A program made the position numbers and the translations under genes. Below, in pieces: positions 20,879 through 22,169 of a DNA stretch of 64,000 bases. The notes under the pieces were generated by a model, which was not told the origin of the DNA, made no database searches, and worked only from the letters and a program-made list of their open reading frames with translations. This stretch comes from Methanomassiliicoccus sp. (GTDB lineage Archaea; Thermoplasmatota; Thermoplasmata; Methanomassiliicoccales; Methanomassiliicoccaceae), in assembly GCA_033485155.1 (NCBI GenBank), contig JAWQJJ010000007.1:62001-126000 (forward strand), given 5' to 3'. The stretch's first letter is position 1. Every line of letters begins with the position of its first letter.

Positions 20879-21679
20879 TCATCTGGATAAGATTTCGGGG
20901 CTCACCGTTGCCGTGAAGGACATCTCCACGGCCTTAGGCTCGGCGCTGGCTGTGACCAGCTGGGCCACCGGCGTTACAGCCGGGTTGACGATGGTGTACT
21001 CAGAACCCTCCTGGATGTAGGCCTCCACTTCCTCGCGGATGGGGGAGATCACGTCCTCGGTGAGCCTCTGAGTCATAGAGTCGATCATACTGTTGATTGA
21101 CCGCTCCATTATGGCGAAGCTCTCGTTGACCGGTATATCGCCGGCGAGGTCCAGGAGCCGATCGTTCTCCAGGACGATGGTGTTCTCGGCCACGTTGCGG
21201 AGCTTCCTGATGCCCTCCTTGGCGGTGGCCAGACGACCCTTCTCATATGAGAAGGGATTGATAGCGATAGCGAATGTGACAGCATTCATGCCCTTGGCGA
21301 CATCGACCACGATAGGGGCCGCGCCGGTGCCGGTGCCGCCGCCCATACCAGCGATCACTATGACTATGTCGCTTCCCTTGAGGACGCTTTCCAGAGCGGA
21401 CCTGGCCTGATCTGCGCAGTGCTCTCCCACCTCGGGGAATCCCCTGGCACCCTGCCCGTGGGTGACATCCTTCCCAATGAGGATCTTCTTGTTGGCGTTG
21501 ACCCTCTCGAGCTTGGTCTCATCGGTGTTGACCGCCACGGTCTCGACCTTCTTGTTGCTCCAGTAGATGCTGTTGACGACGTTGTTACCGGCGCCGCCGC
21601 ATCCCACGATGGAGATCTTCGGTTCCAGGAGGCCCTTGCTTAGCGTGGCCACTAATTGTTCGCTGTTGGTGTGCATCAT
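20879..21679 (-). CDS. short FtsZ-like GTPase lacking the canonical T7 loop
   Basis: A 266-residue tubulin/FtsZ-superfamily protein. The GTP-binding domain is intact: VGCGGAGNNVVN at about 25-36, AVNTD at 49-53, and the tubulin signature GGGTGTGAAP at 113-122. After the core helix H7 region it diverges. The NxDFADV T7 loop, which supplies the residues that activate GTP hydrolysis in the neighbouring subunit, is not seen, and the C-terminal domain is about 100 residues short of normal FtsZ (350-400). It should bind GTP but may not polymerise or hydrolyse like FtsZ. The start could be ATG 21679 or 21676, or GTG 21685. It lies directly downstream of a ribbon-helix-helix gene. Confidence 0.82.
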   Translation of the reverse strand: MMHTNSEQLVATLSKGLLEPKISIVGCGGAGNNVVNSIYWSNKKVETVAVNTDETKLERVNANKKILIGKDVTHGQGARGFPEVGEHCADQARSALESVLKGSDIVIVIAGMGGGTGTGAAPIVVDVAKGMNAVTFAIAINPFSYEKGRLATAKEGIRKLRNVAENTIVLENDRLLDLAGDIPVNESFAIMERSINSMIDSMTQRLTEDVISPIREEVEAYIQEGSEYTIVNPAVTPVAQLVTASAEPKAVEMSFTATVSPEILSR

Positions 21680-21788
21680 CCCCACTCCCTCTCTGCCCTA
21701 ACTGAAGGTGAGCTGACCAGCCCTGTTATCAGGGCCGTGCATCCCATCCCTCTACAGACCACATCCCTTCTAGATCTGTCGAGCTGCC

Positions 21789-22169
21789 CTAATCTGGTAC
21801 CATCTGCACCGTGCCTTTGAGATTTTCCAGTTTTTCCCGTTTTATGTTCTCAATGGCCTCTTCGATGTTGATGTACCGCTTCCTGACGCACTCAACTATC
21901 GCTTCCTCGGGGGAATTGTATATCCCTGCCCGAACCGAGGACATGATGGTCTCGTGCGCGAATCGGGGGACCTCGATCGTGATCACGTTGCTCTTGACGT
22001 TCTTGGTGATCTCATTGGTCTTGGTCCCCTCGAACTGTTCTATGAACGAACGAATGGCCACCCTGGCAAAGTTGGAACGGTTCGAGTATTCCGGATGCTT
22101 CTCGATGAAGGCATCAAGGAGCTCGAGATCCTCGGGTTCCAACCGCAGTGAGATCCTTTCTCCGTCCAA
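21789..22169 (-). CDS. tandem ribbon-helix-helix DNA-binding protein (CdrS-like)
   Basis: A 126-residue protein with two RHH-like units: residues about 5-45 (RISLRLEPEDLELLDAFIEK, then SNRSNFARVAIRSFI) and about 66-105 (VITIEVPRFAHETIMSSVRA, then SPEEAIVECVRKRYI). A lysine-rich C-terminal helix follows. A TTG start has AAGGTGAG 6 bases upstream. In haloarchaea the RHH protein CdrS is cotranscribed with ftsZ2 and controls cell division; here the RHH gene is 109-112 bp upstream of an FtsZ-like gene on the same strand. A similar role is inferred from that context. Confidence 0.82.
   Translation of the reverse strand: MDGERISLRLEPEDLELLDAFIEKHPEYSNRSNFARVAIRSFIEQFEGTKTNEITKNVKSNVITIEVPRFAHETIMSSVRAGIYNSPEEAIVECVRKRYINIEEAIENIKREKLENLKGTVQMVPD

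Follow-up and report, generated by a model that had tools for sequence, protein, structure and literature searches.

A short FtsZ paralogue without T7 loop and C-terminal domain, encoded beside a tandem RHH gene in Methanomassiliicoccales

MciZ is a small peptide, unrelated to FtsZ, which acts as a terminator of FtsZ filaments. FtsZl1 and FtsZl2 are members of the FtsZ superfamily in which filament-forming parts are altered or missing, and membrane remodelling has been proposed for them (Makarova and Koonin 2010, PMC2875224); FtsZl1 consists of an FtsZ-like N-domain, a coiled coil and an extra helical C-terminal domain and is devoid of T6-H7 (PMC2875224). FtsZ of Nitrosopumilus maritimus was reported to be non-polymerising, to lack the NVDFAD T7 loop and to have lost the GTP-binding motif (PMC3684127). 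In haloarchaea ftsZ2 resides in the cdrS-ftsZ2 locus, represented in Methanomassiliicoccales by RHH-ftsZ2, and CdrL of Halobacterium binds only upstream of cdrS-ftsZ2 (PMC7439475).

Here we describe a window of 64,000 nucleotides from Methanomassiliicoccus sp. (G000:C7:62001-126000; the genome comprises 2.8 Mb in 15 contigs). At 22169-20879 its minus strand bears a two-gene cassette, an RHH gene followed, 109 bases 3', by a short ftsZ. The short FtsZ shares with FtsZ2 the FtsZ N-domain and the same-strand RHH gene directly 5', but it differs in lacking the T7 loop and the C-terminal domain and in forming its own clade, the true RHH-FtsZ2 being encoded elsewhere in the same genome. Like FtsZl1 and FtsZl2, it is an FtsZ-superfamily member with filament-forming parts altered or missing; it is not an FtsZl1, however, having T6 Asn and H7 and a tail of only about 40 aa. 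The missing T7 loop likens it to the N. maritimus protein, from which it differs by its intact GTP-binding motif. A literature search revealed no account of the short FtsZ or of FtsZ loss in Methanomethylophilaceae.

Sequence and predicted structure of the short FtsZ

The short ftsZ (20879..21679, minus strand) starts with ATG at 21679 and encodes 266 aa, comprising an FtsZ N-terminal GTPase domain, an extended H7 helix and a disordered tail; the automatic call of 268 aa adds two residues from a GTG 5' of this ATG. Membership in the FtsZ superfamily is established by Pfam Tubulin PF00091 (residues 23-181, 2.7e-38, 132.6 bits against a curated cut-off of 33) and by the model, which matches FtsZ N-domains of the PDB over about 190 residues. 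Of the traits of canonical FtsZ, the GGGTG[T/S]G signature and the pocket residues are present, and the NxDxx[D/E] motif and the C-terminal domain are absent. The NCBIfam ftsZ equivalog TIGR00065 gives 198.8 bits, below its cut-off of 295.2, and the match ends at profile position 211 of 353. Neither Pfam nor NCBIfam profiles detect the C-terminal (activation) domain, and none appears in the model, so that its incompleteness, suspected in an earlier note made from the letters alone, is confirmed.

The closest solved relative is M. jannaschii FtsZ1, and the alignment runs to the T7 region. Residue counts were made on 33 short FtsZs from outside one family, f2, and on 20 f2 rows, five of them duplicates. 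We infer f2 to be Methanomethylophilaceae or close to it; the short FtsZs of Methanomethylophilaceae L109 and L111 resemble that of the f2 genome G047 (L110). The GTP-binding signature GGGTGTG (residues 113-119; 21323..21343, minus strand) is nearly invariant among non-f2 orthologues. Together with the T1 glycines, NTD, Pro161, Glu165 and Asn192, it is kept in 32-33 of the 33 sequences, and the base-contact position of Asp212 holds Glu or Asp in 31. Where M. jannaschii FtsZ reads NVDFADV, the short FtsZ aligns as SPI-R-EEV (SPIREEV, residues 212-218; 21026..21046, minus strand), with the last acidic position alone retained. None of the 33 keeps T7 Asn233 or Asp235, and the position of Asp238 is acidic in 31 (24 E, 7 D).

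Alignment and residue counts thus bear out the earlier note in seeing an FtsZ homologue with GTP-binding signatures but no NxDFADV T7 loop. Its concern that an acidic T7 equivalent might exist receives a divided answer, N233 and D235 being absent in all and an acid persisting at the Asp238 position outside f2. Because this acid is kept, some catalytic contact is possible. On sequence grounds, the view of the short FtsZ as a GTP-binding module incapable of FtsZ-type self-activation is well supported.

In f2 the pocket is mostly retained, the base contact is Asn, the acid at the Asp238 position is not conserved, and the sequences appear to evolve mildly faster than leuS predicts. One f2 short FtsZ (G020, L135:5493-6266) has mutated T4 glycines, GMGGHAGTE, and has probably lost GTP binding. 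In G262 no clear short FtsZ is seen.

An AlphaFold2 model built from a 25-row alignment (mean pLDDT 77.9) displays an N-terminal helix, a GTPase core forming a high-confidence N-domain, a continuous helix and a disordered tail. The predicted helix, a single one of 41 residues without T7 loop (residues 184-224; 21008..21130, minus strand; block pLDDT about 66-80), combines H7 with an extension and occupies, in the model and the alignment, the place expected for H7 and T7. Such a helix might allow assembly independent of T7, the longer H7, amphipathic in many orthologues, mediating dimers or a new filament and the Asp238-position acid reaching the next nucleotide. The continuity of the helix and the retention of the acid outside f2 argue for this, as does the hydrophobic moment of the extension, which in about half of the short FtsZ sequences exceeds nearly all shuffles. 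Against it, f2 does not conserve the acid, half of the canonical interface is missing along with the C-domain, and the helix is modelled with moderate confidence; we hold self-assembly of this kind to be quite improbable.

Model and motif comparison place the predicted disordered tail (residues 225-266; 20879..21007, minus strand) where the C-terminal domain would be expected. In many non-f2 orthologues it contains short conserved motifs, AEL-x-x-AS-like and a terminal hydrophobic-x-R. The GID motif, the site by which archaeal FtsZ binds SepF (PMC8178401), was looked for in the tail and not found.

The RHH gene and its putative operator

The first gene of the cassette (21789..22169, minus strand, TTG start) encodes a CdrS-like tandem RHH regulator of 126 aa, recognized by ORF call, Pfam and NCBIfam profiles and structure model. 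Pfam RHH_8 matches just over its cut-off. The NCBIfam CdrS model, which has 61 positions and covers one RHH, yields 25.5 bits against an equivalog cut-off of 100. The gene lies, as cdrS does, directly upstream of an ftsZ gene. Two helix pairs in a single chain, as expected of two RHH units, are predicted by the model, in agreement with the tandem RHH gene that had been recognized 5' of the short ftsZ (ORFs 22169-21789 and 21679-20879). A fold search of the PDB gave nothing significant for this protein, only weak matches to RHH antitoxins and NikR.

On the minus strand, 5' of the RHH gene, lies an operator-like direct repeat TATGAC-N4-TATGAC (22237..22252), present in a single copy in the genome, and just 3' of it a TATA-box-like sequence, ATATTTTTATATACTTAGTA (22210..22229), which is kept in relatives. 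Of 12 genomes, 11 carry a single exact copy of the repeat, always 5' of the RHH gene of the short ftsZ; the twelfth genome (G002) has a variant spacing. Many relatives bear extra TATGAC copies, direct or inverted, across the TATA-like box, and the pair was not found at RHH-ftsZ2 promoters. The uniqueness of the repeat at this promoter leads us to predict that the RHH protein acts as a local autoregulator through this putative operator. The binding so expected resembles that of CdrL, with its single binding region upstream of cdrS-ftsZ2, and an RHH protein adjoining an ftsZ gene is common to both systems (PMC7439475). The differences from CdrS/CdrL are that the cassette protein has two units in a 126-aa chain, that it scores far under the CdrS cut-off and that its operator is a predicted one.

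Conservation of the cassette and the full-length FtsZs

Orthologues of the short ftsZ are present in most of 60 relatives; across several families, more than 30 species show them at a similar short length and with unchanged architecture. This similarity of length across many species and contigs rules out chance and frameshift as well as sequencing error or truncation, the danger named in the earlier note, and a pseudogene is ruled out in the window by the conserved pocket and locus. The gene order leuS - RHH - short ftsZ - NAD kinase - oxidoreductase is largely conserved (40 loci). In the window, an ATP-NAD kinase family gene (19688..20788, minus strand) lies 3' of the short ftsZ and a leuS-like class I tRNA synthetase gene (22777..25656, plus strand) is the divergent neighbour; both are conserved and serve as context only. 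In profile searches the RHH gene adjoined the short ftsZ in every f2 locus examined and in G239, a different lineage of the class in which the short FtsZ also has its RHH partner.

The constancy of the neighbouring genes (leuS, NAD kinase, 2-oxoacid oxidoreductase), along with the strict linkage to the RHH gene, would also suit a GTP-binding protein without any division role, for example one tied to its metabolic neighbours or serving purely as a co-regulator of RHH. Synteny is weak functional evidence, however, and the leuS and oxidoreductase genes lie on the strand opposite to the cassette. Moreover, the protein is an FtsZ, and RHH-ftsZ pairing also marks cdrS-ftsZ2 (PMC7439475). We consider a role outside division improbable.

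Among 245 Thermoplasmatota genomes, high-scoring short-frame matches were confined to Methanomassiliicoccales and G239, the best matches elsewhere being almost all of canonical length, and a search for a family-specific peptide across 84,980 prokaryote genomes gave matches in this same group alone. In the tree, the short FtsZs constitute a single clade (100/100), separate from FtsZ1 (100/98) and FtsZ2 (98/91). We read the short FtsZ as a paralogue of FtsZ that arose long ago and has been passed on vertically.

Seven matches to the tubulin family were found in the genome. Five are full-length FtsZs that have T7; the other two are the short FtsZ and a degenerate homologue of 319 aa. The full-length proteins, for which the earlier note had advised a search, are four of FtsZ1 type and one RHH-linked FtsZ2, the latter encoded by the true RHH-ftsZ2 pair at G000:C9, adjoining TBP and a TrmJ-like gene. 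The likeness to cdrS-ftsZ2 pointed out previously therefore stands as regards an RHH gene beside an ftsZ, but not as regards the locus. Orthology of the short FtsZ with RHH-linked FtsZ2 is ruled out by the separate clade and by the locus, which is not that of TBP and TrmJ.

Two further observations concern these homologues. The cluster TrmJ - RHH-ftsZ2 - TBP - two tandem FtsZ1 genes is conserved across the order (L127, G000:C9:80000-90000), so that TBP, a general transcription factor, adjoins division genes. The degenerate homologue of 319 aa (G000:C4:105183-105446; L007, L130:4899-5855) has GGETGS, lacks the T7 motif and possesses the C-terminal domain; its relatives, 313-331 aa long, are conserved in f1, f3, f4 and f6.

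With an intact GTP face, no bottom half and five full-length FtsZs encoded by its own genome, the short FtsZ might cap filaments: bound to GTP, it would occupy, by its top face, the exposed T7/C-domain end of a protofilament so that no further subunit could be added and length would be limited, the dose being set by the RHH cassette. If this were right, one protofilament end would be blocked as by MciZ-type terminators, the blocker here being an FtsZ N-domain. The somewhat loosened protein of f2, a family that has no FtsZ1 and whose FtsZ2 has lost T7, would agree with capping. Yet nearly every f2 genome retains the short FtsZ though none has a T7-bearing FtsZ, and in two no other tubulin-superfamily protein was found. 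Such persistence implies that capping is not the whole function, and we find the capping reading rather unlikely.

Family f2 and the role of the short FtsZ

A T7-bearing FtsZ was looked for in 19 f2 genomes (95-99% complete) and not detected in any. FtsZ1 is gone in this family and FtsZ2 lacks T7 or is deleted; the short FtsZ persists nearly everywhere. In most f2 genomes only two tubulin-superfamily proteins are present, both RHH-linked: the short FtsZ and FtsZ-X, a degenerate protein of about 270-300 aa. Where examined, FtsZ-X adjoins the same TrmJ-like gene, behind an RHH gene, and because of these two neighbours it is identified as a decayed FtsZ2. In the near-complete genomes G015 and G059 the short FtsZ is the only detectable tubulin-superfamily protein.

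In FtsZ-X (L078-L087, L136-L147, L174-L177) GPFFS replaces the T7 motif and a C-domain-like end is kept. G015 (L189:2189-2491) and G059 (L192:1172-1498) still possess the RHH gene by TrmJ, its FtsZ2/FtsZ-X partner missing. The f2 genome G047 (C21, L116:675-1730) encodes an RHH-linked FtsZ2 of 352 aa whose T7 reads VSVGMSKL, possibly an intermediate of FtsZ decay.

All 19 non-f2 genomes tested have SepF, and in f2 this protein is either divergent or not detected. ESCRT-III (PF03357) had no match in 38 genomes, by an insensitive search whose control matched in Sulfolobus only, under the cut-off. In the M. alvi type strain, wall and S-layer were not seen (PMC10673518).

The two RHH-linked proteins that are the sole superfamily members in most f2 genomes could represent a split FtsZ, the GTP pocket being supplied by the short FtsZ and the other half by FtsZ-X with its C-domain-like end. 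In the alignment, however, FtsZ-X is without a T7 motif, it retains parts of its own pocket and it is absent from G015 and G059, making such a division of labour highly improbable.

Since f2 has no T7-motif FtsZ, some role independent of FtsZ filaments must remain there. We prefer to regard the short FtsZ, tentatively and at somewhat less than even chances, as an FtsZ module that binds GTP, is deficient in hydrolysis and does not polymerise. Under control of its dosage it would work as a switch or scaffold, and in species that have FtsZ it might also dock on that protein. A paralogue reduced to N-terminal GTPase domain, elongated H7 helix and disordered tail would be produced from the RHH-ftsZ cassette, probably under self-repression. 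It would bind GTP and, alone, would be incapable of FtsZ-type hydrolysis or head-to-tail polymerisation. It would serve as a GTP-gated switch or scaffold of division or membrane machinery, with GTP face, helix and tail as the parts that engage partners; the connection with division is suggested by FtsZ family membership only.

In species with FtsZ, the short protein could also modulate FtsZ filaments by attaching its intact top face to their T7/C-domain end, and the private dosage control would then be accounted for. The looser pocket and mildly faster evolution in f2 are weakly suggestive of loss of a main FtsZ partner. A switch or scaffold independent of polymers fits every lineage, whereas pure capping conflicts with f2; of the capping, scaffolding or regulatory subunit first suggested for this gene, the latter two are thus the preferred reading. 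Division in f2 might even run without polymerisable FtsZ, the RHH-linked GTP-binding N-domain, in some species the sole tubulin-superfamily member, being a filament-independent division switch, a proposal we advance with considerable doubt.

In Methanomassiliicoccales, then, a conserved FtsZ reduced to the half that binds GTP, with a regulator gene of its own, occurs either together with normal FtsZ or in its place. A natural FtsZ half-molecule of this kind, its GTP pocket intact and its T7 loop and C-terminal domain missing, would mean that the usefulness of FtsZ does not depend on making filaments. In the gut-associated f2 hardly any FtsZ relative but the short FtsZ survives, and it bears directly on how these archaea divide. 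With cultured, wall-less gut members in Methanomethylophilus, and with relatives that have no T7-motif FtsZ and no detected ESCRT-III, the group allows a direct test of how such archaea divide.
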